Origin: Candidatus Phocaeicola faecipullorum
GTDB taxonomy: Bacteria > Bacteroidota > Bacteroidia > Bacteroidales > Bacteroidaceae
Assembly (NCBI GenBank): GCA_018884025.1
Contig: JAHLFB010000097.1
Location: 1-53,765, forward strand
Direction: 5' to 3'
Length of the DNA stretch: 53,765 nt
Shown: one piece after another, positions 19,352 through 32,824 of the stretch
Numbering within the stretch: position 1 is the first letter of the stretch
Layout of the letters: every line of letters begins with the position of its first letter
The notes under the pieces: generated by a model
What the model was told of the DNA's origin: nothing
Seen by the model: the letters and a program-made list of their open reading frames with translations, nothing else
The model's database searches: none
Made by a program: the position numbers and the translations under genes

Positions 19352-20509
19352 ATGAAACTAAAAAGACCCGGACTACTGACACAAATCATTATTGCCATCA
19401 TACTGGGTATATGTGCCGGCATCATTTCTCCGGCACTGCCGGTAAGGATATTCGTTACATTCAACGGACTGTTCAGCGAATTTCTGGCATTCATCATACC
19501 TCTGATAATAGTAGGACTTGTAGCTCCCGCAATAGCCGACATCGGCAAGGGAGCGGGAAAGATGCTTGCCGTAACAGCCCTTCTGGCATATGGAGCGACA
19601 CTGTTCTCCGGATTTACCTCGTATGCCGTAGGACAAACATTCTTCCCGATGCTTATCACCCGCGACATTCCGCTGTCAGAGATAAGCGAGGCAAACGGCG
19701 TACAGCCTTTCTTCACGATAGACATCCCCGAACCGCTGAACGTCATGACGGCACTTGTAATGGCCTTCACCGTTGGTCTGGGTATTGCAAACCTGGATAC
19801 GAACTACCTGAAAAATGCGCTGACAGACTTCAAGGAGATTATAGTAAAGACTATCCAGAAGGTTATACTTCCTCTATTGCCGATATACATATTCGGTATA
19901 TTCTTCAACATGACGCACTCCGGCCAGGTATTCCATGTGCTGAGTGTCTTTATAAAGATTATAGGAATTATATTCATTCTGCACATTCTTCTGCTGATTT
20001 TCCAATACATCATAGCAGGACTGATAGCAAGAAAAAATCCTTTCAGAATGTTGGCCAATATGATGCCGGCATATTTCACCGCACTGGGAACGCAATCATC
20101 GGCAGCGACCATTCCTGTCACACTGAAACAAACGATAAAGAACGGAGTGAACGAGGATACGGCTGGATTTGTAATACCTCTGTGCGCCACCATACACCTG
20201 TCGGGAAGTACAATGAAGATTGTGGCATGTGCCCTTGCGCTGATGATGATGCAGGACATACCCTACGATTTCAAGATGATGTCTGGATTTATATTCATGC
20301 TTGGAATAACCATGGTAGCAGCTCCCGGCGTTCCGGGAGGAGCCATAATGGCTTCTTTGGGAATACTGTCATCAATGCTCGGCTTCGATGAAAACGCCCA
20401 AGCACTGATGATAGCACTTTATATAGCCATGGACAGCTTCGGAACGGCATGCAACGTTACCGGCGACGGTGCCCTGGCCTTAATAATTGACCGATGGTTC
20501 AATAAATAA
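19352..20509 (+). CDS. Dicarboxylate/amino acid:cation symporter (SLC1/GltP family)
   Basis: Encodes 385 residues with about eight membrane segments and two re-entrant hairpins. The first hairpin region carries ALGTQSSAATIPVTLK (about residues 246-261), the serine-rich motif of this family. The second half includes CATIHLSGSTMKI, AAPGVPGGAIMASLG and the final MDSFGTACNVTGDGALA, which holds the substrate- and cation-binding residues. Transport of glutamate, aspartate, serine/threonine or C4-dicarboxylates with sodium or protons is the family role; the exact substrate is unclear. The gene is in the operon of the Nim-like protein. Confidence 0.93.
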   Translation: MKLKRPGLLTQIIIAIILGICAGIISPALPVRIFVTFNGLFSEFLAFIIPLIIVGLVAPAIADIGKGAGKMLAVTALLAYGATLFSGFTSYAVGQTFFPMLITRDIPLSEISEANGVQPFFTIDIPEPLNVMTALVMAFTVGLGIANLDTNYLKNALTDFKEIIVKTIQKVILPLLPIYIFGIFFNMTHSGQVFHVLSVFIKIIGIIFILHILLLIFQYIIAGLIARKNPFRMLANMMPAYFTALGTQSSAATIPVTLKQTIKNGVNEDTAGFVIPLCATIHLSGSTMKIVACALALMMMQDIPYDFKMMSGFIFMLGITMVAAPGVPGGAIMASLGILSSMLGFDENAQALMIALYIAMDSFGTACNVTGDGALALIIDRWFNK

Positions 20510-20652
20510 GCTTATACAAAGTTTCCGTGACACGAATGTATTCCGCCAATCTTTTACGGAGTTTTGAATAAATAAAAAACTGTTTCACGTTCATTTTTCT
20601 TTCAAGAAATAAAAAAAAGAAAATAAAATCACGATTTTTAATATAAAATTAT

Positions 20653-20660
20653 TAACTTTG
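20653..20660 (+). promoter_or_regulatory. -7 box of the structured RNA
   Basis: TAACTTTG matches TAnnTTTG exactly and is followed by C, as in many strong Bacteroidetes promoters. The upstream element is a poor match. Transcription would begin near 20667. Confidence 0.65.
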
Positions 20661-20666
20661 CTCCGT

Positions 20667-20989
20667 TTCCATCACGTCGGTATCTGTTAAGATGCGGATT
20701 GGGTGGGAACTATACATACAGGCGTTTACTGGACGCTTTGGTTTTGACAATGTAAGAATCTCGCAAATTCAGACTGTTCGTCAAAAACAAAGCAACGTGA
20801 ACGCCCCGTGGGGTGTTTATATATAACCAAAACTGTACCCAAAATAAAGCAATATAGGTACAGGTAAAGGTATATTATATATATACAGACATCGGCGTGG
20901 GGCTTTCGACGTTGCTCGTTTCGACGAACAGGGCAATGCGAGAGCCTTTACATTGTGGAACGAGCGACAGAACTGGCTCCACGTTTTTT
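20667..20989 (+). ncRNA. Highly structured non-coding RNA, about 320 nt, possibly 6S-like
   Basis: No gene fits, but the sequence folds into one long rod. CAATGTAA/TTACATTG and TCTCGCA/TGCGAGA (20748-20765 with 20937-20955), CTGTTCGTC/GACGAACAG (20774-20782 with 20923-20931), AGCAACGT/ACGTTGCT (20791-20798 with 20909-20916), GCCCC/GGGGC (20803-20807 with 20899-20903), an AT-rich stem, and a capping hairpin CTGTACC/GGTACAG (20833-20839 with 20857-20863) stack in order. The rod is followed by GTGGA/TCCAC (20955-20982) and six T, an intrinsic terminator. A consensus -7 box lies in front. A rod with internal bubbles recalls 6S RNA, but the size and the extra 80-nt 5' part make that only a guess. 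The AT-rich stem (about 20814-20890) and the exact ends are uncertain. Confidence 0.75.
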
Positions 20990-21063
20990 ATGTATAGGCA
21001 CAAACCTTAAATACAAACTATGGCAGTAACGGAGCCGGCTGACATAAAATAAATTAACCGCCC

Positions 21064-22299
21064 ATGCTGCGTATCTTAACTGTTTTGTATAGCAATATTA
21101 TGGGGAGAAATATCAAATGCACTGTTCCCCTACTCCATGTCATAATAACGATAATTGTTTGCATTCTATTTGTAAGTTGCAAAGAACAACTTGTAGTTGA
21201 TTCATTACCAGTCTATCCTACAAAATTAGTTCAAAAACCTATATTGAATGTGTTCATAGAAAATTCAGGTAGCATGGATGGATATATGTGTGATGGAAGT
21301 GAATTCAAGGATGCTGTATATAGCTATGTCAATAATCTAAATAGATATGCTGATACGACGAAACTATTTTTCATTAATTCCAATATCATACCGTATAAGA
21401 ACAAATTATCAGGTTTTGTAAAGGATCTTAATCCACAATCATTCAGGAAAGCAGGTGGTAATAGGTCTAATTCTGATATTGGGGAAATGTTAGAAAAAAT
21501 AATTAAAAATGTTTCGGACACTACTGTTTCTGTTTTTATTTCAGATTGTATTTTAGATCTTCCACAAAATGCTATGAACTTTCTTAATATCAAAAAGGAA
21601 GAGATATCAAATTGTATATATAATAAAAGAAAGAGCTTACCTAATCTGTCTGTGAAGATCTTGAAAATGCAATCAAAATTCAATGGTATATATTACTATT
21701 CAAGAGGAATGGGAAACCCTGAAAGAATTATTAATGAAATGAGACCATATTATATATGGCTCTTAGGAACGAATAATAACCTTTCATTTTTTGAAAATAA
21801 AGTTTCATCCTCAGAAATAGAGTATGGATTCATAAATGAAGTAGCTTTTTCCCCATATATAGCTGTACCTTTTGAAGTATCAAACAAAGGACAAGGCAAA
21901 GTGCTCAATGCCATAAATGGGAAATATGAAATATTAATAAAGGCAGATTTTCGGCCTACGTTAAGTATCAATACAGATATAGAAAATATAAATAATTATC
22001 AAGCCTACTCACCGGATGTGAAAGTCTGTGAGGTTCGTAAAATAACGGCGGAAAGCCTGTATTCCCATTACATAAAAGTATTAATAGAAGAAGAAACGAG
22101 AGTTATGGAAGAGAATATCAGATTCAAGTCATCAGGAATACCTCAATGGGTAATTGAAACAAATGACACATCCGGATGTGATATTAAAAAGAATATGAAT
22201 AAAACTACAGGAATATTATCACTGATAGAAGGTGTAGCAGACGCATACAAAGAAGAAACTATAAATACAAATTTTAAATTTTCATTAAAACGTAATTAA
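21064..22299 (+). CDS. VWA-like lipoprotein, first gene of the novel operon
   Basis: Encodes 411 residues, or 399 if translation starts at the ATG at 21100, which gives a neater signal peptide (MGRNIKCT, hydrophobic core, then LFVSC). The cysteine predicts a lipoprotein. Directly after it, NVFIENSGSMDGY (about 62-74) matches the first MIDAS strand of a von Willebrand A domain, with the usual first Asp replaced by Glu/Asn. GGNRSNSDIGEM (about 130-141) and VFISDCILDL (about 157-166) fit the second and third metal-site loops. The C-terminal half (from about 210) is unrecognised. I see no consensus promoter between the RNA terminator and this gene. The protein would sit in the periplasm or outer membrane, possibly sensing or binding a ligand. 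Next gene starts one base later. Confidence 0.8.
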   Translation: MLRILTVLYSNIMGRNIKCTVPLLHVIITIIVCILFVSCKEQLVVDSLPVYPTKLVQKPILNVFIENSGSMDGYMCDGSEFKDAVYSYVNNLNRYADTTKLFFINSNIIPYKNKLSGFVKDLNPQSFRKAGGNRSNSDIGEMLEKIIKNVSDTTVSVFISDCILDLPQNAMNFLNIKKEEISNCIYNKRKSLPNLSVKILKMQSKFNGIYYYSRGMGNPERIINEMRPYYIWLLGTNNNLSFFENKVSSSEIEYGFINEVAFSPYIAVPFEVSNKGQGKVLNAINGKYEILIKADFRPTLSINTDIENINNYQAYSPDVKVCEVRKITAESLYSHYIKVLIEEETRVMEENIRFKSSGIPQWVIETNDTSGCDIKKNMNKTTGILSLIEGVADAYKEETINTNFKFSLKRN

Positions 22300-22300
22300 T

Positions 22301-22762
22301 ATGGGACACTTTTGGGGCAGCATATATTGCTGGTTTTTCGAGGATTTTTACGGGCTACCGTTAGCTGACTATTTGTGGGGAATATCATCTCCCAATCAAA
22401 CAGGAAACATGTACTTTGGCATTGGTCTGTCTATGGCAGCTATCAGTCTTGTGGTGGCTGTGATATTTTATTACATAATAAATCATCCGAAATTAAACAA
22501 TTGGTGGGGATGGGGAATATTCTTATTTTTCAATGCTATCGTCAACTTTTTTGTCGGTTGGCAATGGGTTCTGAAAGACTATTATGCTGGGAAAATGATA
22601 ACTATAAATCCTGAGACAAATTTAGAAGAAGCTCTACCTATACAGGAAACAGACTTGCTTTGTTTCGGAGTATCCAATATGCTTCTGTCGATAATATGTT
22701 TCTTTATAATCTCTTTAATAATAAAATGGTGGAGCAGCAGTTGTCCTAAAGCTCCGTTTTAA
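22301..22762 (+). CDS. Small three-helix membrane protein of the novel operon
   Basis: Encodes 153 residues and is not recognised as a known family. Three hydrophobic segments are clear: about 38-60 (FGIGLSMAAISLVVAVIFYY), 70-90 (tryptophan- and phenylalanine-rich, with FFNAIVNFFVGWQWVL) and 121-142 (SNMLLSIICFFIISLIIKWW). A short N-terminal aromatic stretch may lie along the membrane, and a polar loop of about 30 residues separates helices two and three. It is translated one base after the lipoprotein and eleven bases before the tubulin-like gene, so it is a built-in part of the system, perhaps a membrane scaffold. Confidence 0.75.
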   Translation: MGHFWGSIYCWFFEDFYGLPLADYLWGISSPNQTGNMYFGIGLSMAAISLVVAVIFYYIINHPKLNNWWGWGIFLFFNAIVNFFVGWQWVLKDYYAGKMITINPETNLEEALPIQETDLLCFGVSNMLLSIICFFIISLIIKWWSSSCPKAPF

Positions 22763-22773
22763 AATACAAACAT

Positions 22774-24159
22774 ATGGCAAAATTATATATTTTCGGTATT
22801 GGAGGGACTGGGTCAAGAGTTCTAAGATCATTAACCATGTTAATAGCTTCCGGAGTAAGTATAGATATCAACGAGATTGTACCTATCATTATTGATCCTG
22901 ATGTTGCTAACGCAGATTTAACAAGGGCTGCATCTCTAATGAATAAATATCATACATTGCGTTCAAATTTACATTTTGGTGATGATAATTCCAATGTTTT
23001 TTTCAAAGTTGAACTAAACAAGATATTCCCCAACTATCTATTGAATATAAAAAATACAGATAGTATTTCATTTCAGCAATTTATAGACTATGCTTCCATG
23101 TCAAGAGAAAACCAAGCATTGACCAAAATGCTATTTTCGGAAAAAAATTTACAATCTTCAATGGAGGTTGGTTTCAAAGGAAACCCAAACATAGGAAGTG
23201 TAGTGTTAAACCAAATTGTAGATTCAGATGAATTCGAGAAATTTGCAAATTCTTTTCAAAGTGGAGATAAGATATTCATCATCAGTTCTATATTTGGAGG
23301 AACTGGTGCAAGTGGTTTTCCTTTGTTGCTGAAAACCCTTCGTATCGGAAAGTCATTTCCTAACTTTAATTTGATTAATCAAGCCAATATCGGAGCATTA
23401 ACTGTCCTTCCATACTTCAAATTAAATCCGAGCGACGAAAGCGAAATTGATTCATCAACATTCATTTCAAAAACGAAATCAGCCTTGGCTTATTACGAGG
23501 ATGATATTATTAAAAGCGGAAGTATCAATTCATTGTATTATCTTGCTGATGATATTTCAAACACATACAATAATTGTGAAGGAGGAGCATCTCAAGCTAA
23601 TGATGCCCACTTAATAGAGTTCCTTGGAGCTACTGCCATTATAGATTTTGCAAATAGTCCACAGTCAGAAACGACTAACAAAGAATTAGGTATTAAAGAC
23701 ATATCCGGCGATGTATCTTTTGATTCATTTTATTCCAATATGCGAGATATGCTTTACAATCCATTGGTTCAATTCACTATGATGGTAAATGCTCTGTTAG
23801 ACAAACCAGATTATTTTACATCATCAACATTTGCAGCCAACCGTTTCTTCAATGATTTTTATGATAAGGCTTTTTATTCAGAATTGAAAGGATTCTGTCA
23901 AAAGTACAGAGAATGGTTGATTGAGATGAAAAGGAACAAACGTTCTTTGGATTTATTCAATACAAATTGCGGGAACAAACCTTTTGAACTGATTACAGGA
24001 GTAAAGCCTAGAAAAATTATAAGTCACTTGTCAGATTACGATTTAGTAGCAGACAGACTTAATTCTGCTGTACGTAACTGTAAGAGTAAGGATAAAGAGG
24101 ATTTATTCTTAGAAATGTTTTATACGGGAACTAAAAAATTAATAAAGGAAAAATTATAA
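22774..24159 (+). CDS. Tubulin/FtsZ-like GTPase of the novel operon
   Basis: Encodes 461 residues. The N-terminus MAKLYIFGIGGTGSRVLRSL has the first glycine loop (T1-like, GIGGTGSR at 8-15). IIIDPDVANADLTR (38-51) fits the next nucleotide loop, and SSIFGGTGASGFPLL (171-185) is the tubulin signature loop (T4, GGTGxSG). The rest matches the broad pattern of the bacterial Tubulin_2-type proteins rather than FtsZ itself, which is shorter and lacks this C-terminal part (residues 330-461). GTP binding is well supported; whether it polymerises is unknown. It lies directly before the Hsp70/actin-like gene (five-base gap), an unusual pairing of two cytoskeletal-type NTPases in one operon. Confidence 0.82.
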   Translation: MAKLYIFGIGGTGSRVLRSLTMLIASGVSIDINEIVPIIIDPDVANADLTRAASLMNKYHTLRSNLHFGDDNSNVFFKVELNKIFPNYLLNIKNTDSISFQQFIDYASMSRENQALTKMLFSEKNLQSSMEVGFKGNPNIGSVVLNQIVDSDEFEKFANSFQSGDKIFIISSIFGGTGASGFPLLLKTLRIGKSFPNFNLINQANIGALTVLPYFKLNPSDESEIDSSTFISKTKSALAYYEDDIIKSGSINSLYYLADDISNTYNNCEGGASQANDAHLIEFLGATAIIDFANSPQSETTNKELGIKDISGDVSFDSFYSNMRDMLYNPLVQFTMMVNALLDKPDYFTSSTFAANRFFNDFYDKAFYSELKGFCQKYREWLIEMKRNKRSLDLFNTNCGNKPFELITGVKPRKIISHLSDYDLVADRLNSAVRNCKSKDKEDLFLEMFYTGTKKLIKEKL

Positions 24160-24164
24160 TTGGT

Positions 24165-27100
24165 ATGTCAAAGATTTTTAGGTTATATGAAGGCGGAACA
24201 GATGTTTATGAGGGATGGAACGACAGCCCAACATTCCCTTACAACTCCACAAGTAGGGATACCATAAAGAATCCTGACGGTGCTTCTGCCAAAAACGAAA
24301 TAACATCAATACCTTCTCCTTTTGCGAGAATAGATTTGATAAAGACAGCATTTAAAGAAGTATGTAAAAACGATATACGCGGATTGTCAGGAAATACTAT
24401 TTTCCATAAAATGGTATCAGACACACTGGATGTAGCTGAGATATTCTTTAACATAGATAAGTTCAATGGGATTGTTGAAGTTATTAATTGGGATGCGTCT
24501 CAAATGGTATCTGAACTTCAGCACTCAAATAGCGAAGGACATCGTTATTTGGCTGATGCACTGACTAAATATATGCAGCTTGGTGCAAACGCTTCCAATT
24601 GGGGGAGAATGAAAAACATATATCTCCTGAATTATGTAAATGGTCCTGACTATATAAATATAATAGGAGCGACATCACCTGCTACATTATTCTTCAGCAG
24701 TGCAAACGACTTGGGGTTTGTGAAAGACATTTACTTTAAGAACGACAGTCCGTTTGACAATGAATACAAACCACTTTACGAAAGAGACTTCAATTTCATT
24801 ATGTCCCTCTTCCTCTTTAGACATACCACGCCTAATTTTGCACGCATGTTTCCAGAGGTTGAAGCCTATCTAAGTTTAACACTTAAAGCCATTGGAGACC
24901 CAAATAAGAAACAACAGTTGAGAAACCTGTCACCTGCTGACTTAAAGAATTATGAAGCCATTTCCGTAGGTGGAAACTTAGTGGAAGTGTTAGGTTTTAA
25001 TCTTCTTAAAAAGAAATCAGGAGTATCTGTGTCTAAAAGCGCATTTGCCATTAAATGTTCCAAGACCATTGCACCCCAGCCATTGGTGCTGCCTATAGAG
25101 CCAGGAAACAAGTACAGCGATTTACAATATACAGTCGGTACTTGGGGTAATATTAACGTTGCACCATATAAAACAGAAGAAGATGATTTGAGCAAGCGCA
25201 AATTACCTTTTGAGGGTTCAACTTATCCGTATCTCACTATAAGTGATTTCATGGAAGATATTTTAGTGAGAGTACCATATACATTAAATACAGAATGTTA
25301 TTTTAATGGGAATATAGGTACCGACAAAGAGACCTGCGCCTATCTGTTACCTCTAACTCCACGTTTCTTTGACTATTTCACTGTTGAAGATTTAATGGGT
25401 GAAATGGCAAATGGTGAGAAAATGTTCGAAATGGAGTTGGTAGCAGGAGGATCAGTCAAAACAGTTTTGCGTATTCCTATTAATGGAGATAACAGAACTG
25501 ATTACATTGAATATTCAAGGATCTATTATAATGGAAGAAAACCCAATGTAACAGAAAAGGTAAATGATGGAGGAATTGTAGAATTTTCATTTACAGGATT
25601 TATAATGCCTTTAATCCGGTTTACAAATTCCGAGCAAGCAATATACGATGTATCATGCGTAAGCGGTGTATCTTCAAAATATGATTTCACTTTCTATTCC
25701 CAATCGAATAAAATATCTCTTACATCTAAATCTTGCAGGAACGAAGATAAACAAGGCGGTAACTTCAAGGCAGAAACTTACCATATAGAGTATTCAAACT
25801 TCGATTTTATCCGGATTTCTGATCGTAATGGTAATTCTGGATTAATAGTTCCTATATTCAAGGAACAAAAAAGCATAGATACATTCGAATTTGCCATAGA
25901 CCTTGGAACATCGAATACTCACGTGGAGTATAGAAAATCTGGCGAGAACTCAAAGGTATTTTCATTGTCAAAAGAAGACAAGCAACATTGCGAGATATTC
26001 CTCCAGAGAAAGGATGACATGGGAAATGCCATTGACTTGATATTGGAAAAACAGTTGATTGAAAAGGACTTTCTGCCAGACGAAATCGGAACAGAAGATT
26101 TCAGATTTCCTACAAGAACAGTATTGTCATATGCTAGGACCACTGATTGGACAAATATCATAGAACCGTTTGCTTTGGTTAACATCCCTTTCACCTACGA
26201 CAAAAGACGTGAATTGCCGTATAACAATTTCAAGTACAATATAAAGTGGGGCAGTGGAGAAGATGACGTGATAGATTCATATGTCAGATGTCTGATGTTG
26301 ATTATACGCAACAAAGTATTGCTCAACAATGGTGATTTGCAAAAAACCAAGATTACATGGTTCTACCCTATAAGTATGGCTCCCAAAAGACTTAAACGTC
26401 TTCAAGCAACATGGGACAATGCTTTCAAGAAATATTTTGGTGACGGAACTACTTACCGTATGACGGAATCGTCTGCTCCTATACAATATTTCTTCAAGCG
26501 TTATGCCACAGCTACCAATCTGATAAACATAGATATTGGTGGAGGAACAACGGATATTGCATTCTCCAACAATAAAGAAATTGATTTTGTAACATCATTC
26601 CGATTTGCATCTAACGTATTGTTTGAAAACTCGTTCTCCGATTTGGATGACAATAACGGTATTGTGGATTATTACAAAAACGAGATTCTGAAATTATTGG
26701 AAGATAAGAGATTGTCAGAACTGATAAGCATATTTAATAGTTCATGCAATAGTAAACCCTCTAATATGGCTTCTTTCTTATTTGGGTTAAAGGACAATAC
26801 TATAGTGAAGAAAGCAAAAGTTAATGACAAGAAAGTTGACTTTAACTATATATTACAGGAAGATGAAAAATTCAAGATTGTTTTTATTTTGTTTTATACT
26901 GCTATAATTTATCATATAGCTCAAATTGTGAAAGCTAAAAGATTGGATGTTCCAAGACATATATCTTTCAGCGGTAACGGTAGCAAGGTTATACGTATAA
27001 TTACTCCTGACGCCAAACTACTTGCTAAATATACAAAGTTGGTATTCGAAAGTATATTAAATAAACCATACGGAAAAGAACTTGAAATATTAGGTATGGA

Positions 27101-27536
27101 GAAAGACTACAATCCTAAAGAATCAACTTGTAAAGGAGGTATTGTAGGTGAAGGGAAAAATGATGTTGAGGATATAATTGTGTTCAAAAGTGATTGTTCA
27201 GGTTTTGTAACTCCATCAGACACTTACGATTGTGTAACTGATGAATATAAAGGTGCTACTATTCATGCAGTCAAAGATTTCTTTAATTTTACATTAAAAG
27301 AAATGAATGAAAAGTTCAATTTTGACAAGAATTTTGGAGTAGATTATAATTCATTAAAGATAGCTTCCTATGTATCTAACAATGACTTGGATACTTATCT
27401 TGAGAAAGGTATAGCACAACGAAAAGAAGAATCGGAAAGTACAGATACCATAGAGGAAACCTTTTTCTTCTATCCGATAAAAGGTGTACTTCATGCTATT
27501 TCTCAAGAGATATACCAGTCTTTAATAAATGAATAG
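24165..27536 (+). CDS. Large Hsp70/actin-fold (ASKHA) ATPase with novel N-terminal region
   Basis: Encodes 1123 residues, the largest protein of the operon. The C-terminal half is an actin/Hsp70 fold: FAIDLGTSNTHVEY (phosphate-1 loop, near 577-590), NIDIGGGTTDIAF (phosphate-2 loop, near 786-798) and HISFSGNGSKVIRII (adenosine loop, near 932-946). The segment TWFYPISMAPKRLKRL before phosphate-2 resembles other large bacterial Hsp70-like proteins. The first 560 residues are not recognised; they lack a signal peptide and obvious membrane segments, so the protein is probably cytoplasmic. Its end overlaps the next gene by eight bases. ATP-driven switching or client handling is inferred from the fold only. 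Confidence 0.85.
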   Translation: MSKIFRLYEGGTDVYEGWNDSPTFPYNSTSRDTIKNPDGASAKNEITSIPSPFARIDLIKTAFKEVCKNDIRGLSGNTIFHKMVSDTLDVAEIFFNIDKFNGIVEVINWDASQMVSELQHSNSEGHRYLADALTKYMQLGANASNWGRMKNIYLLNYVNGPDYINIIGATSPATLFFSSANDLGFVKDIYFKNDSPFDNEYKPLYERDFNFIMSLFLFRHTTPNFARMFPEVEAYLSLTLKAIGDPNKKQQLRNLSPADLKNYEAISVGGNLVEVLGFNLLKKKSGVSVSKSAFAIKCSKTIAPQPLVLPIEPGNKYSDLQYTVGTWGNINVAPYKTEEDDLSKRKLPFEGSTYPYLTISDFMEDILVRVPYTLNTECYFNGNIGTDKETCAYLLPLTPRFFDYFTVEDLMGEMANGEKMFEMELVAGGSVKTVLRIPINGDNRTDYIEYSRIYYNGRKPNVTEKVNDGGIVEFSFTGFIMPLIRFTNSEQAIYDVSCVSGVSSKYDFTFYSQSNKISLTSKSCRNEDKQGGNFKAETYHIEYSNFDFIRISDRNGNSGLIVPIFKEQKSIDTFEFAIDLGTSNTHVEYRKSGENSKVFSLSKEDKQHCEIFLQRKDDMGNAIDLILEKQLIEKDFLPDEIGTEDFRFPTRTVLSYARTTDWTNIIEPFALVNIPFTYDKRRELPYNNFKYNIKWGSGEDDVIDSYVRCLMLIIRNKVLLNNGDLQKTKITWFYPISMAPKRLKRLQATWDNAFKKYFGDGTTYRMTESSAPIQYFFKRYATATNLINIDIGGGTTDIAFSNNKEIDFVTSFRFASNVLFENSFSDLDDNNGIVDYYKNEILKLLEDKRLSELISIFNSSCNSKPSNMASFLFGLKDNTIVKKAKVNDKKVDFNYILQEDEKFKIVFILFYTAIIYHIAQIVKAKRLDVPRHISFSGNGSKVIRIITPDAKLLAKYTKLVFESILNKPYGKELEILGMEKDYNPKESTCKGGIVGEGKNDVEDIIVFKSDCSGFVTPSDTYDCVTDEYKGATIHAVKDFFNFTLKEMNEKFNFDKNFGVDYNSLKIASYVSNNDLDTYLEKGIAQRKEESESTDTIEETFFFYPIKGVLHAISQEIYQSLINE

Positions 27537-28404
27537 AATAAAAAATAAAGATATGCAAAACATATTAATAATAATATTTTTTGCTCTATGTACTGTTTCT
27601 TATGGTTGTTCTGACAGTACAAGAGCCCAAAATCTTCCTACGAACAAAGAAGTATTTGAGGATAATAAGATAAAAGAAGTCAATTCGCATATTGATAGTT
27701 TGAAGTCTGAACTTTTTTCCTTAAAAAAGGAATTGAAAGAGCAGAAAAGAACTATAGACAACCAGCAAAAAGAAATAAAAACACTAAAAGAAAAAAAATC
27801 AGAGATACCTTTGATTTGGATAATTATAGTATCAGTTGTATCTATTCTAGTTCTTTATCTTATGCGATATTTTTATATCACACTTAGAGATATTAAAAAC
27901 AGATTGGATAGACATCGTTCTGACATTTACAAATTATCTGATAGAATAAAGGAATATGAGAGTAGAACCAGCAAGACTCCAATTTCAAAGCCTCAAAAAG
28001 AAAACTGCCCTAAAAACAATTATAGGTATAAACCTATGGAAAACAAACCGATTACACCTACTATTGAAATAGCTGAAGAAAAGATTAAACCAGAAATGAA
28101 TGTCAAAGAAACAAAGGAAGGTTATTTTGGTATGCTTATAGGTAACAGTTATTTTAATGAATGTATGGTATCAAAAAATGATAATGCCTTGTTTAAGGCA
28201 TGGGTTGGTGACACAGAAGGAGAATACACGGTATTAAAATTGGATGCTATAAGAAGTGTTGATGGAATAGAAAATGCTGTTTGTATGGAAGGTGTACCTA
28301 TAAAAGAAGCTAAAAATTTCCAAGTTATAGAAAAGGGAAAAGTAAAGAAAAATTCAAAAGGAAACTGGAGTATAGTATCTCCAACAAAGATAAAACTTAG
28401 TTGA
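27529..28404 (+). CDS. Membrane-anchored coiled-coil protein of the novel operon
   Basis: Encodes 291 residues, unassigned. The N-terminus looks like a signal peptide or lipoprotein signal (IIIFFALCTVSYGC), followed by a charged coiled coil (about 45-93). A clear transmembrane helix follows (about 96-115, LIWIIIVSVVSILVLYLM), then a second coiled coil (117-145), a proline- and lysine-rich linker and a globular C-terminal domain (about 195-291; YFGMLIGNSYFNECMV to the end). The predicted layout places the first coiled coil outside and the C-terminal domain inside the cell. It starts eight bases inside the ATPase gene and ends two bases before the ATG of the channel gene, so it may link the cytoplasmic NTPases to the stator. 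Confidence 0.72.
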   Translation: MNRIKNKDMQNILIIIFFALCTVSYGCSDSTRAQNLPTNKEVFEDNKIKEVNSHIDSLKSELFSLKKELKEQKRTIDNQQKEIKTLKEKKSEIPLIWIIIVSVVSILVLYLMRYFYITLRDIKNRLDRHRSDIYKLSDRIKEYESRTSKTPISKPQKENCPKNNYRYKPMENKPITPTIEIAEEKIKPEMNVKETKEGYFGMLIGNSYFNECMVSKNDNALFKAWVGDTEGEYTVLKLDAIRSVDGIENAVCMEGVPIKEAKNFQVIEKGKVKKNSKGNWSIVSPTKIKLS

Positions 28405-28406
28405 AT

Positions 28407-29933
28407 ATGAGTCTTGTAGCAATAATAATACTTTCTGTAATTTTAGTTCAGATAATATTCTTTGTTCAGAATAGAGCAAGAATGAACGAATTCAAAAACA
28501 TATTCAATGAGAATAAATCCTGGACCTTATCGTATGATGCCGAAACGAACTTTGTGAATGGTATTTCCGGAAAAGGGAATAAGGTTTTCGACGCAATAGT
28601 ACATTCCATTAATAAATACCTCGGAAGCAGTTCTGGTTCTGTAATTGATTATGGTGTTTTGAAAGATGCAATAGATAGGCATTGCGATACTGTAGAAAAT
28701 GACATAGCTGTTCAAACACCTATTCCGTTGTATTGCGGACTTGCAGGTACTATGGCTGGTGTTATTATAGGATTGTGGGATTTATTGGACTCACAAGCAA
28801 TTCTTACGCTAATGGGCAGTGGAACAGTCAATATCAGTAATGCATCTGACATAGCTGCTAATGGTATTAATGATTTGCTTTTAGGTGTTGCATGGGCAAT
28901 GGCCGCTTCTATTTGTGGTATAGTTCTTACCACACTAAACTCAGTCTTATTCAAACGATGCAAGTTGGAAGAAGAAAGTGGCAAAAATTCATTTTTGGCT
29001 TGGATGCAGTCAAAACTGTTACCTGAGCTGCCATCTGACACATCGGAAGCATTGGGAAAACTTGTAAAGAACCTAAACAAATTTAATACTACATTTGCAG
29101 ATAATACTAACAACTTGGGTAAGGCTCTTGCTAAGGTAAACGAGTCGTATGCAATACAAGCTGAAGTCATAAAAACAGTTCATGATATGGATGTAATGAA
29201 AATGGCAAAAGTCAATATCAACGTATTGCAGGAACTTAAGGAATGCACGTCTAAACTCGAAGATTTCAACCTGTATCTTGATAAAATTAAAGGCTATACA
29301 GATGCAATACACCGATTTGAGAGTATGTTCAAGTCTGAAGCAGAAAGACTACATATATTAGAAGAAATACGCGATTTCTTTAACAGGCATAAAGGTGAAA
29401 TAGCCAAAGATACAGGAGATGCAGATATCGCATTACGTGATTCATTGAAAACCATAAAAGAATCCACTGCTGCCAACATGACTGAACTTAACGCAAAATT
29501 TGTGGAACAAAGCGAGATTTTCAAGAGTATAATAAAAGAAGAACAGGATACTTTTAAACGTATAAGTAATGAGATTACCACACAGTTTGAGACACAGCTT
29601 AAACAGATGCCGCTATTGAAACAACAGCTGGAAGGTATTTCTGCAATCCCTGAACACCTTAACATCTTGATAGAAAAGATAGAAGAATCAAACAAAACAT
29701 TAGCTCAAGAAATAACAACATCAGTGCAACATACTGTGTCGCAGTTAAATCAAAGAATTCCTGAAGTGAGAGAAAACAATAAGGAGAGTAATACAGAAAA
29801 TCAAATTGTTGTGCAATCTATGCCTAATTGGATGAGAATAAGCGGATGGTGTGCATTAATTATAATTGCTTTAACTAGTTTGTTATTTTTATCTGCAATT
29901 ATATTAGATTATCTGGGTATTATATACCTCTAA
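28407..29933 (+). CDS. MotA/TolQ/ExbB/ZorA-like proton-channel protein with long coiled-coil tail
   Basis: Encodes 508 residues from the ATG at 28407. Helix one is at 2-21. PLYCGLAGTMAGVIIGLW (about 107-124) matches the second-helix motif of the MotA/TolQ/ExbB superfamily, and NGINDLLLGVAWAMAASICG, continuing to about 176, is the third. Then follows a long cytoplasmic part (about 180-460) with coiled-coil character, like the tail of ZorA. Unlike MotA or typical ZorA, there is a fourth hydrophobic helix at the very C-terminus (about 480-502, ALIIIALTSLLFLSAI). It is paired with the next gene, which looks like its MotB/ZorB partner. Ion flow driving movement or force is inferred from the family. 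Confidence 0.85.
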   Translation: MSLVAIIILSVILVQIIFFVQNRARMNEFKNIFNENKSWTLSYDAETNFVNGISGKGNKVFDAIVHSINKYLGSSSGSVIDYGVLKDAIDRHCDTVENDIAVQTPIPLYCGLAGTMAGVIIGLWDLLDSQAILTLMGSGTVNISNASDIAANGINDLLLGVAWAMAASICGIVLTTLNSVLFKRCKLEEESGKNSFLAWMQSKLLPELPSDTSEALGKLVKNLNKFNTTFADNTNNLGKALAKVNESYAIQAEVIKTVHDMDVMKMAKVNINVLQELKECTSKLEDFNLYLDKIKGYTDAIHRFESMFKSEAERLHILEEIRDFFNRHKGEIAKDTGDADIALRDSLKTIKESTAANMTELNAKFVEQSEIFKSIIKEEQDTFKRISNEITTQFETQLKQMPLLKQQLEGISAIPEHLNILIEKIEESNKTLAQEITTSVQHTVSQLNQRIPEVRENNKESNTENQIVVQSMPNWMRISGWCALIIIALTSLLFLSAIILDYLGIIYL

Positions 29934-29946
29934 AACTTTGAAAGGT

Positions 29947-30576
29947 ATGGCACAAAAGAAAGAATCTTTTTTCTGGACAAGCTATTCTGATCTTATGACA
30001 AGCCTGTTCTTTATCATGCTTGTTCTATTTATTCTGGTAATTGTAGTTCTACATAAAAGAATGGAAGTGACAGAACATCAACTTGAAGAAATTCAAAAAG
30101 TAGAATCTTCTACCAAAGATTTAAGCAGGGACTACTTTACATATCGACCAGAATACAAAAAATATGTGTTAAATATAGCTGTAAGATATCCTATAGGAGA
30201 ATCTGATATAAATAGAATTGAAACCACAAACAAACATGAAGTCTTAATGCAACTTCATCAGGCAGGAAAAGAAATAGAAAAATTTTTATATAATCATCGT
30301 GAAAACCAGTATCTTCTAATTATTGAGGGACAGGCTTCCCTTGACGCTTACACACTTAACTATGAGTTAAGCTACCAAAGAGCTTTGGGACTTCTGCGGT
30401 ATTGGACAAACCAATGCGGAATTCAGTTTGGGCGTAACTGTGAAATTCAAATTTCCGGTAGTGGTGACGGAAGACTTGACACTCATTCTATGAGAGAGCT
30501 AAACGAAAGAGAAAATCAGCGTTTTTTGATACATATCCTTCCTAAAAATATTTTTGAACGAAATGAAAGCAAGTAA
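29947..30576 (+). CDS. MotB/ZorB-like stator protein with OmpA-type peptidoglycan-binding domain
   Basis: Encodes 209 residues from the ATG at 29947. A short cytoplasmic tail leads to FFWTSYSDLMTSLFFIMLVL, a single transmembrane helix with an aspartate at residue 15, the position of the proton-binding Asp in MotB and ZorB. A linker follows, and the OmpA/MotB domain (about 115-200) shows LIIEGQASLD, LNYELSYQRALGLLRYW, IQISGSGDGR and ERENQRFLIHI, the usual peptidoglycan-binding pattern. It is 13 bases downstream of the channel gene and overlaps the protease gene by 14 bases. The pair would form a stator fixed to the cell wall. Confidence 0.88.
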   Translation: MAQKKESFFWTSYSDLMTSLFFIMLVLFILVIVVLHKRMEVTEHQLEEIQKVESSTKDLSRDYFTYRPEYKKYVLNIAVRYPIGESDINRIETTNKHEVLMQLHQAGKEIEKFLYNHRENQYLLIIEGQASLDAYTLNYELSYQRALGLLRYWTNQCGIQFGRNCEIQISGSGDGRLDTHSMRELNERENQRFLIHILPKNIFERNESK

Positions 30577-31297
30577 TTTACTATTTATAATTGGTATTTT
30601 TTCATTAACAGGGTGCGCCCATAAGTCAGGTCATAAGAGAGAAAACTTCATACAAGAAAGGAGTGTTGTTTCACATCCAAGTACTATGACAAACACTAAT
30701 ATTGAGGTATCTAGAAACAGGCGAAATGTAGAAAAAATGGATGGAGCAGAAGTATTTTCCAGATACAATACAGCTGTATTTATGGTTTATACATCCGATG
30801 GATATAATATGTATCAGGGCTCAGGCTTTTTTATAAACAATTCAGGACTTGCCGTAAGCAATTATCATGTATTTAAAAACACAAGTATTGGAGAAGAAGG
30901 CATCAAGTTAGCTGGCAGTAAAGAAATTTATAAAGTTTCCGAAATCATAAAACGTAATGAACAGGAAGATTTTATTCTATTCAAAGTAAATATAGCAAAT
31001 ACTAACTATATTCCAATTGCAGGACGTAAACCCAATGTAGGTGAGAAAGTATTTGCAATAGGAAGTCCTAGAGGATTGGAAAACACATTCTCGTCCGGAG
31101 AAATTTCACAATGGCGTGACAGAAATTTAATGCAAATCAGCGCACTTATAGACCATGGAAGTAGTGGCGGAGCATTAATAAATGAATATGGCGAAGTTGT
31201 CGGTATAACATCAGGAACTTTTTATGATGGTTCACAAGCCAATCTCAATTACGCTTGGAGCATTGATGTAATAAAGCCATACATTAACATGAGATAA
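30563..31297 (+). CDS. Trypsin-like serine protease lipoprotein, last gene of the novel operon
   Basis: Encodes 244 residues from the ATG at 30563. The lipoprotein signal ends FSLTGC. After a polar linker, the chymotrypsin-fold domain shows GSGFFINNSGLAVSNYHVF (catalytic His), NEQEDFILFKV (catalytic Asp) and LIDHGSSGGALINEYGEVVG (catalytic Ser in GSSGG), so the triad appears intact. There is no PDZ domain, unlike DegP. The protein would act in the periplasm or on the inner face of the outer membrane. Its gene overlaps the stator gene by 14 bases. A cleavage effector or regulated processing enzyme of the system is a reasonable inference; the target is unknown. Confidence 0.85.
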   Translation: MKASNLLFIIGIFSLTGCAHKSGHKRENFIQERSVVSHPSTMTNTNIEVSRNRRNVEKMDGAEVFSRYNTAVFMVYTSDGYNMYQGSGFFINNSGLAVSNYHVFKNTSIGEEGIKLAGSKEIYKVSEIIKRNEQEDFILFKVNIANTNYIPIAGRKPNVGEKVFAIGSPRGLENTFSSGEISQWRDRNLMQISALIDHGSSGGALINEYGEVVGITSGTFYDGSQANLNYAWSIDVIKPYINMR

Positions 31298-31333
31298 ATA
31301 GTTTAATTCTTAATTGGAAAAATTTATCAAAAA

Positions 31334-31368
31334 TTCACTGACTGTTCAATGAGTGAACAGCCGGTGAA
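31334..31368 (-). terminator. Terminator between the novel operon and the convergent ABC gene
   Basis: TTCAC...CTGTTCA (31334-31348) pairs with TGAACAG...GTGAA (31354-31368) with a three-base internal loop. The minus-strand side is followed by an AT/T-rich tract, so it mainly ends the ABC gene but may also stop the plus-strand operon. Confidence 0.6.
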
Positions 31369-31375
31369 TCTCTAT

Positions 31376-32824
31376 TTACTTATACCTGACAAGATACAAT
31401 GAATTGGTGATGCATTCCGGAAGTTCTTCCTTGTAGTGCGTCACCATAATCATGGTCTTGTTCTCACGACGGCAGAATGTCTCGATTACATCTTTTACAA
31501 GTCGCCTGTTGTAAAGGTCAAGTCCGTGAAGCGGCTCATCAAGAATAAGAAGTTCAGGGTCTTTTACGAATGCGCGTGCCAGCAGGACAAGTCTCTGCTC
31601 GCCGCTTGACAGTTGCAGAAAGCTCCTGTCCGCCAGTTTTTTCACTCCGAACACATCCATCCAGAACAGACACACTTCCCTGTCTTCCTCTTTCGGACGT
31701 TTGTACAGTCCTATTGAATCGTGAAGTCCGCTCGCCACAATGTCTATGGCAGGAATATTCTTAAGATACGCCCTGTGCATTTCCGGGCTTACATAGCCTA
31801 TATGTTTCTTTATCTCCCATATGCTCTCGCCACTGCCGCGTTTGCGGTCGAACAGCGTTATATCGCAAGCATAGCTCTGTGGATTATCGGCACACACAAG
31901 GCTTAAGAGTGTTGACTTTCCCGCACCGTTTTCTCCGCTCAATGCCCATTTCTCACCACACTTCACCGTCCAGTCCAGGTCACGCAATATAGTTCTTTCT
32001 CCGTAACGGATACTCACCTTATTCAGTCGGACCACATTCTCGGCATTATACTGATTGTCCTTATACGGCAGTTCCAATATGGCTTTTCTCTTTTCTTCCG
32101 ACAGCATACTGGCGGGTACTTTCACTCCTTCATATTCCTGACGTGGAATTTTCGTTCCGCACGTCATATCCTCTACTGTTATCACATGAGTGACGAAAGC
32201 AGGTATATCGTCCGATTTTGACAGGACCAGAATAACCTGAAGGCCTATTACCCTTATCAGCTCATCAAGCAGTGATTTAAGCAAATCGCGTGTACCGGCA
32301 TCCAGACCGATGAAAGGATTGTCCATTATAAGGACTCTCGGACCTGAAAGCAATGTCTTCGTAAGCTGGAACTTTCTCAGCTCTCCGCTTGACAGGAGAA
32401 TGATAGGCTTTTGCAACATCTCCTCCACCCTAAACAGCTTGTACAGCTTTCCTTTCAGTTCTTCGTCCTTGCATGGAGGCAGCAAATCGCCCACCACAGG
32501 AATATTTTCCATATCCTGTGAGTTCCATCTCTGCTGATAGTAATAGCTGCCATCGGCATCACCGTATGAATCGCGGAAAGTTATATACCTGAGATTGTCT
32601 GATACCAGATTTGTGGCGGCAGGCGAAAAATCGTATGCCACCTCGTTCATCAACAAGGGATACTTCCCCGTTATTATATCTATAAATATGCTCTTGCCTC
32701 CACCGTTAGGGCCTACTACAGCCAATTGTTCTCCGGCGTTGAGGCAAAAGTCCACCGGTTTACGCATCCTGTAAAGCGGATGACGCGTCACACCATTTGA
32801 TACTGAAATAACTCGTTGTTGCAT
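31376..32824 (-). CDS. ABC ATPase with two nucleotide-binding domains (ModF/PhrA-like)
   Basis: Encodes 482 residues with two complete ABC domains and no membrane part. Domain one: GPNGGGKSIFID (about 37-48), signature LSSGELRKFQ, Walker B VLIMDNPFIGL. Domain two: GENGAGKSTLLSL (about 295-307), signature LSSGEQRLVLLARAF, Walker B LLILDEPLHGL. This is the ModF arrangement, a soluble protein often called photorepair PhrA-like; its real role is not well known. Some signature glycines are replaced (LSSGE), as is usual in this family. The gene is 87 bases downstream of ruvC, with a repeat element in between. Confidence 0.88.
   Translation of the reverse strand: MQQRVISVSNGVTRHPLYRMRKPVDFCLNAGEQLAVVGPNGGGKSIFIDIITGKYPLLMNEVAYDFSPAATNLVSDNLRYITFRDSYGDADGSYYYQQRWNSQDMENIPVVGDLLPPCKDEELKGKLYKLFRVEEMLQKPIILLSSGELRKFQLTKTLLSGPRVLIMDNPFIGLDAGTRDLLKSLLDELIRVIGLQVILVLSKSDDIPAFVTHVITVEDMTCGTKIPRQEYEGVKVPASMLSEEKRKAILELPYKDNQYNAENVVRLNKVSIRYGERTILRDLDWTVKCGEKWALSGENGAGKSTLLSLVCADNPQSYACDITLFDRKRGSGESIWEIKKHIGYVSPEMHRAYLKNIPAIDIVASGLHDSIGLYKRPKEEDREVCLFWMDVFGVKKLADRSFLQLSSGEQRLVLLARAFVKDPELLILDEPLHGLDLYNRRLVKDVIETFCRRENKTMIMVTHYKEELPECITNSLYLVRYK

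Follow-up and report, generated by a model that had tools for sequence, protein, structure and literature searches.

Several described systems share parts with the locus reported here. In the sections of Makarova and Koonin (2010; PMC2875224) available to us, operons were described in which FtsZl1 is encoded together with vWA and OmpA proteins and in which a P-loop GTPase or a protein kinase is frequent, but not universal. They were published as an unnamed, predicted membrane-remodelling system, and Bacteroides caccae is among the aligned sequences. Kaur et al. (2020; PMC7159879), in the accessible portion of that paper, predicted conflict operons that operate close to the membrane and involve the tubulin, vWA and HSP70 families, and they also defined the trypsin-NucA 'System 3', which was described mostly from alphaproteobacteria and has trypsin and NucA as its core. 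Here, we describe an operon of eight genes (g1 to g8, positions 21064-31297, all on the plus strand) on a stretch of 53,765 nt from Candidatus Phocaeicola faecipullorum, which is called the window in the following. The tubulin-vWA-OmpA core of this operon has been known since 2010, whereas an exchangeable terminal enzyme, termed the cartridge, and a short tag at the N-terminus of many of these enzymes are new.

The first gene, g1 (21064-22299, probable start ATG 21100), encodes a vWA-like lipoprotein, and the vWA fold had moderate support from a model. The product of g2 (22301-22762) is a small multi-pass membrane protein with about 3 transmembrane (TM) segments by eye, for which no Pfam match above the cut-off was found. 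The tubulin/FtsZ-like GTPase is encoded by g3 (22774-24159; PF00091, 3e-5; PF13809, 9.7e-5). Its loop FGGTGAxG was invariant across 5 divergent homologues, and GG[TS]G was present in the alignment rows covering the loop. With PF13809 (Tubulin_2), which we take to be FtsZl1, the window protein scored 22.2 bits at a cut-off of 27, and 3 of 5 family members matched, the best with 2.4e-7. The next gene, g4 (24165-27536), encodes a protein of 1123 aa with an ASKHA (actin/Hsp70-type) ATPase domain at about residues 571-1001, which has the two phosphate loops, the adenosine motif and the actin-like fold typical of ASKHA proteins; the N-terminal ~570 aa lie outside any domain assignment. A lipobox-like signal, a coiled coil, one TM segment and a C-terminal domain characterize the product of g5 (27529-28404; topology by eye), which is present in one or two copies in most loci.

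The genes g6 (28401-29933) and g7 (29938-30576) encode a putative stator pair. The g6 protein was assigned as a MotA/ZorA-like subunit; its MotA signal was weak, as was the hhalign alignment to ExbB, and the match to the PADLOC model of ZorA (8e-4) falls into its long coiled coil. The g7 protein is a MotB/ZorB-like subunit with an invariant Asp in the TM segment (D18) and an OmpA-type domain. Its best PADLOC matches were ZorB models (5.3e-13), and its best match among solved chains was 8vvn_B (2e-13); 8vvn and 8qyd are presumably Zorya structures. Like ZorB, it combines one TM segment containing an Asp with a peptidoglycan-binding domain, the TM segment and the ion role of the Asp being assigned by analogy. 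The likeness to Zorya ends with this pair, as the initial annotation had proposed: no PADLOC match to ZorC, ZorD, ZorE, ZorF or ZorG was found in the eight window proteins at E values up to 1, and because the Zorya partner genes are absent, the operon does not belong to Zorya. Two further differences are that the coiled coil of g6 is followed by a hydrophobic stretch, an extra C-terminal TM segment, so that the tail, which in ZorA is long and free in the cytoplasm, apparently comes back to the membrane (by eye, from the alignment), and that the enzymes of the window are predicted to be outside, whereas those of Zorya are in the cytoplasm. By analogy, Zorya may show how the stator part works.

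To quantify the conservation of the gene order, genome contigs were searched with five tubulins, which yielded 334 relatives, and the best 80 of these 334 were used for the neighbourhood counts. Hidden Markov models of the individual genes were run on these 80 loci, and loci with enough sequence were regarded as testable. The genes g1-g2-g3 (vWA-TM-tubulin) adjoined in 68/68 testable loci, with g2, the family of which could be aligned, directly 5' of the tubulin gene in all 68. Tubulin and ASKHA genes (g3-g4) adjoined in 77/77 testable loci, and g4-g5-g6-g7 were found in this order in 59 of 68. In the remaining 9 loci, g5, g6 or g7 was undetected, or the operon was broken (L023) or rearranged (L084). 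In L023, g1 is shortened to 103 aa and g4 to 368 aa, and the stator was undetected, which fits a dispensable accessory system. The near-identical loci L019, L021 and L022 were retained in the neighbourhood, enzyme and state-change counts. The initial annotation had named a tubulin, an Hsp70/actin ATPase, a channel pair and VWA-like and trypsin-like lipoproteins as members of one unit. These identities held in the profile searches, and the co-occurrence counts contradict the alternative that the neighbourhood is not conserved. The eight-gene operon is thus a real feature. As a separate observation, the stator genes of two loci are separated by a gene for a membrane protein of about 600 aa that is vWA-like by eye (L083, 19017-20822; L093, 19034-20854).

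Judged from the record titles, most carriers of the best 80 relatives belong to Bacteroidales and Flavobacteria, and some to other groups of Bacteroidota. Six of the 80 are recorded under other names (Oscillibacter, Bacillota, Acetatifactor, Pseudobutyrivibrio, Sulfuricurvum and Leptospiraceae) and are metagenome bins, or apparently so. Across 395 evenly sampled genomes of the phylum, 10 had g4 (11 places) and 13 had g3 (14 places). Ten of the 11 g4 places were less than 400 bases from a g3 place, and the eleventh (G660, a partial match) was 3.1 kb away; 3 of the 14 g3 places had no g4 at the same threshold. The gene sets are linked, yet rare across the phylum. A g4 match of some kind was present in 35 of the 61 genomes of the genus, but only 8 of 61 had a match of at least 270 positions; the other matches covered about 50 residues, mostly in open reading frames (ORFs) of about 340 aa that look like MreB by eye.

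In the FtsZl1 operons, as here, a divergent tubulin GTPase is combined with vWA and OmpA-domain proteins, the products spread from the cytoplasm to the envelope, and a vWA gene was a neighbour of the tubulin gene in 68/68 loci of our set. The presence of Bacteroides caccae in the 2010 set indicates that a part of the window system had been seen before. The sections of PMC2875224 available to us do not describe the ASKHA protein, the MotA-type subunit, the protease, the nuclease cartridge or the tag. Unlike in the FtsZl1 operons, a P-loop GTPase or a protein kinase had no Pfam match in the eight window proteins. As to whether this exact gene set had already been published or named, neither the full set nor the cartridges or the tag were found in a literature search that covered few subscription papers and no bioRxiv preprints, and only the tubulin-vWA-OmpA part had appeared in 2010, judged from the accessible sections of PMC2875224. 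The GAP1-N2 double-GTPase systems differ in that, in the portion of the 2020 study at hand, tubulin and HSP70 are separate themes, whereas their genes were neighbours in all 77 testable loci here; TRAFAC GTPase, GAP1 and FNIII had no Pfam match in the eight window proteins. 'System 3' resembles the window system, as far as its accessible description goes, in pairing trypsin-like peptidases with NucA/Endonuclease_NS, but the window system places its enzymes, mostly as lipoproteins, behind a tubulin-ASKHA-stator machine.

The last gene of the window operon, g8 (30554-31297, probable start ATG 30563), encodes a trypsin-like protease lipoprotein (PF13365, 1.8e-21) and occupies the cartridge position. 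To characterize this position, plus-strand enzyme genes at any distance 3' of the tubulin gene within the fetched stretch were counted in the best 80 loci, 3 viral loci and 3 genome loci, which were also the basis of the tree counts. Immediately after g7, a trypsin gene was present in 37/64 loci, another ORF in 18/64, and none within 120 bases in 9/64. At least one enzyme was found in 56 of the 64 loci with stator B, i.e. trypsin in 37, retropepsin in 11, EndoNS in 18, SNase in 8, EEP in 3 and a hydrolase in 2. Pfam searches with ten representatives identified Endonuclease_NS (2.7e-54), SNase (2.3e-23), a retropepsin-like aspartyl protease (1.8e-14) and an EEP nuclease (2.6e-12). One match, to an S9-type hydrolase, was weak, the small membrane family DUF6804 was also found, and two representatives had no match. 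The catalytic residues were well conserved, with H, D and S in 39/39 trypsins, DTG in 12/12 retropepsins and the His in 19/20 EndoNS proteins. Trypsin and retropepsin co-occurred in 1 locus compared to 6.4 expected (p = 4e-4), and EndoNS and SNase in 0 loci compared to 2.2 expected (p = 0.06). Because the two proteases and the two nucleases are rarely or never found together, we interpret the pattern as a slot for a protease and another for a nuclease. On a tubulin tree with 57 rows (a quick tree, no shuffle control), at least 12 changes of the protease state and at least 19 changes of the nuclease state occurred. The last gene is therefore a cartridge of interchangeable hydrolases, most of which are predicted to be extracytoplasmic.

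The resemblance of g8 to the protease domain of DegS/DegP (TIGR02037, 4.1e-22) and the location of the outer parts, which are envelope proteins, would suit a role in envelope quality control or stress relief, in which the complex senses damage of the outer membrane or the wall and activates a DegS/HtrA-like protease, while the nucleases clear leaked nucleic acid. We regard this explanation as unlikely. Although g8 shares the trypsin-like domain and the H-D-S triad with HtrA/DegS, no PDZ domain was found by Pfam at E values up to 1. In addition, EndoNS was found without a recognised protease in 9/64 loci, which is a bad fit to a quality-control protease, and the system is patchy and inserted.

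The second new feature is the tag directly behind the predicted lipid cysteine. A tag was classified as basic when it had at least two K/R/H and no D/E at positions +2 to +9 after this cysteine, and lipoboxes were identified by a regular expression. In g8 the tag is CAHKSGH (30614-30634, plus strand), a sequence that is encoded only once in the genome. CAHKSGH is found on both the window trypsin and the retropepsin of L043. The two enzymes of L033 carry CAHKSGR and CSHTSGK, and the two of L065 carry CKRPNR and CKRNRP. L033 and L043 lie inside the clade of CAHKSGH trypsins, so in these cases the enzyme was swapped and the tag was kept. Among the distinct tags encoded by terminal genes, 35 of 61 were basic, whereas the other lipoproteins in these loci had a basic tag in 5 of 50 cases (p = 1.3e-7); among the core lipoproteins, they occurred in 11% of 62 g1 proteins and in 0 of 30 g5 proteins. 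Tags of the same locus were more similar to each other (14.0) than shuffled tags (9.0; p = 0.0005, and p = 0.008 within broad taxa), in a test of ten hand-picked loci, each of which encodes two lipoproteins that belong to different recognised families of enzymes. For 17 effectors of three enzyme families, the identity was 86% in the tag, 25% in the signal peptide and 10% in the linker; as this set was chosen by the tag, only the contrast of the tag with signal peptide and linker counts. These results suggest that some core protein reads the tag.

A conserved operon that ends in varying nucleases and proteases is reminiscent of the logic of polymorphic toxins, and Bacteroidota lipoproteins can be surface-exposed. 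The tagged enzymes might thus serve contact-dependent or secreted antagonism, being shown on the surface or passed to rival cells. A family of small lipoproteins of 122-158 aa directly 3' of EndoNS in three loci (L053, 18468-18836; L063, 18438-18914; L071, 19952-20344) could represent immunity; these proteins may be inhibitors, chaperones or unrelated. However, no companion recurs behind most of the nucleases among ORFs of at least 80 aa, no genes for a secretion apparatus were found in the operon by Pfam, and the tag is basic, whereas the Bacteroidota signal for surface export of lipoproteins is acidic. Antagonism is thus quite unlikely. Membrane remodelling or vesicle formation by the tubulin-like protein, with the enzymes as accessories, appears improbable. 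It was predicted for the FtsZl1-vWA-OmpA operons in 2010 (PMC2875224, in its accessible sections), but it leaves unexplained why proteases and nucleases were exchanged repeatedly while their tags were conserved.

The operon lies within an inserted segment of about 10.9 kb (20515-31384, not assigned to a strand). In the six nearest genomes, the blastn alignments end at window positions 20501-20514 and 31385-31392. The flanking genes, which by eye encode a symporter of the dicarboxylate type and a double ABC ATPase, are convergent and abut in close relatives, their matched ends being separated by 12 bases in G077, G060 and G028, 14 in G018, 112 in G080 and 176 in G015. In seven more distant genomes of the genus the same gap is filled with metabolic genes, and the site was therefore not called a hotspot. 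The tubulin relative was found in four plasmid records and on three IMG/VR contigs, one of which (L099) has g1-g5 and two of which (L100 and L101) carry, as far as the examined stretch goes, most of the core; it was not found in phage records. An ion-driven motor together with predicted extracytoplasmic nucleases and proteases would also be in line with a powered apparatus that processes DNA or protein from the surroundings so that the cell can take it up or feed on it. Such scavenging is very improbable, because the operons lack a recurrent transporter or competence gene (ORF lists, by eye) and the system is rare (10/395 genomes) and inserted.

The inserted segment also contains a structured non-coding leader upstream of g1 (20698-21002, plus strand). 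It was found upstream of g1 in 7 other loci with 70-81% nucleotide identity (over only 86 bases in L029; L087 and L120 are apparently one contig), and it was kept even at L014, the g1 of which is only ~20% identical. The RNA fold had a z-score of -7.06 compared to shuffles, and no Rfam match was found for the leader. It is present in 19/295 genomes of the order, the window genome included. Among 20 leader places examined (L153-L172), several head operons that PADLOC ties to defence, i.e. an HKD-Snf2 helicase (7.7e-121), an HKD-Snf2 and type IIG pair, a DNA methyltransferase (1.1e-119), UvrD-type helicases and a kinase beside vWA and, by eye, PP2C genes. Of nine proteins from 7 leader places, hand-picked as defence-looking, 7 had PADLOC matches. 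The leader of the window operon is thus common to a range of accessory cassettes, some of which are defensive, and the ~300-nt element may have a general role in the regulation or mobility of accessory operons in Bacteroidales.

A second, diverged locus is present in the same genome on contig C164 (L004, 374-17621). It encodes a vWA lipoprotein, a tubulin, a g4-like protein, a trypsin lipoprotein and an additional ASKHA-like protein of 1085 aa (by eye); stator genes were not detected on this contig. Together with loci such as L074, in which no stator was detected either, this suggests that the wider family consists of vWA, tubulin, ASKHA and hydrolase, and that the stator is a module of the branch to which the window belongs.

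Gene set, gene order, insertion, enzyme exchange and tag are established by the sequence comparisons, and from them we infer a localisation, a target and a series of steps. The tubulin-like GTPase and the giant actin/Hsp70-like ATPase would act as a pair in the cytoplasm. The inner membrane would contain the peptidoglycan-anchored MotAB/ZorAB-like ion-driven stator g6/g7, the multi-pass g2 and the bitopic coiled-coil linker g5, while the outer face would carry g1, the vWA lipoprotein, together with one or two hydrolases (protease, nuclease or both), which are lipidated in most cases. The stator and its peptidoglycan contact may sense a disturbance of the envelope, or the ion gradient may power the machine. 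The tubulin-ASKHA pair would be an NTP-dependent switch or scaffold, and the signal would pass the membrane via g2, g5 and g6. The hydrolases would be held through the N-terminal tag by the vWA protein or g7, and activation would release them or concentrate them on site, where proteins and DNA in transit would be cut. The host genome would be spared, as the hydrolases are outside the cytoplasm.

With moderate confidence, we propose that the operon encodes a transferable, envelope-spanning conflict system of Bacteroidota that is most likely directed against phages or mobile DNA. The predicted extracytoplasmic nucleases, the repeated exchange, the insertion and the kinship of stator B with ZorB argue for a conflict with incoming DNA. 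The near-invariant neighbourhood in a patchy unit, the retained catalytic residues, the tags and the occurrence of the leader at restriction-modification, HKD-Snf2 and kinase operons also speak for a conflict system. The system, which is carried by some gut and marine bacteria, looks like a defence against invading DNA or viruses. More tentatively, it may be a new periplasm-acting immune machine, in which a stator- and NTPase-powered core recognises the tag, so that hydrolases of nearly any fold could be plugged in and released against injection proteins and the DNA of phages or plasmids during their passage through the envelope. The tag would then be a modular docking code that co-evolves with the core, two protease and two nuclease folds carrying tags. 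The initial annotation had assumed a machine that controls a protease. This came close, but was too narrow, because the protease is one of several interchangeable hydrolases including nucleases. Its observation is confirmed, and its interpretation is partly supported: defence, which it had listed among several open functions, is now favoured, with the restriction that the search of the flanks was not clearly positive.

In this search, 145 (of 378) flanking ORFs yielded 45 PADLOC families (an estimated at least 9 proteins among the matches listed), and 96 control ORFs, mostly from one genus, yielded 7 families (~5 proteins), so that an enrichment of defence genes in the flanks relative to the control ORFs was not clearly positive. 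This result is one of several that weigh against a defence system. The other leader places head lipoprotein, metabolic or unknown genes without a look of defence. In 8/64 loci, 3 of which run off the contig or stretch, no recognised enzyme was found. The tag is not universal, as 65 of 86 enzyme ORFs had a lipobox and 41 a basic tag. Lipobox and basic tag were found in 36 and 26 of 39 trypsins, 11 and 6 of 20 EndoNS proteins, 9 and 5 of 12 retropepsins, 7 and 4 of 9 SNases, 2 and 0 of 2 hydrolases and in none of 4 EEP proteins; in several EndoNS and SNase proteins, the signal is an ordinary one or the start is cut. The predicted localisation of the enzymes depends on the lipobox expression. The stator is not universal, as indicated by the second copy and by loci such as L074 without a detected stator, and the fold assignments of g6 and g1 are weak to moderate. 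Lastly, a possible EndoNS inhibitor would weaken the argument that no immunity is needed.

If the proposal of a periplasm-acting defence is correct, immunity would meet invaders between the membranes and not in the cytoplasm, tubulin-, actin- and motor-type machines would be joined in one bacterial device, and one short tag would let different enzymes plug in. It would also give a testable function to the tubulin-vWA operons predicted in 2010. The pattern of cartridge and tag makes the docking partner and the target accessible by experiment.

Two minor observations concern the 3' end of the operons. The small membrane protein DUF6804 is encoded in 15/86 loci (e.g. L087, 19177-19497), in several of them near this end. 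In Flavobacterium akiainvivens (L068, 17827-21423), the operon is directly followed by a gene for a small lipoprotein and then by an ORF of 1096 aa that is Cas9-like by eye.

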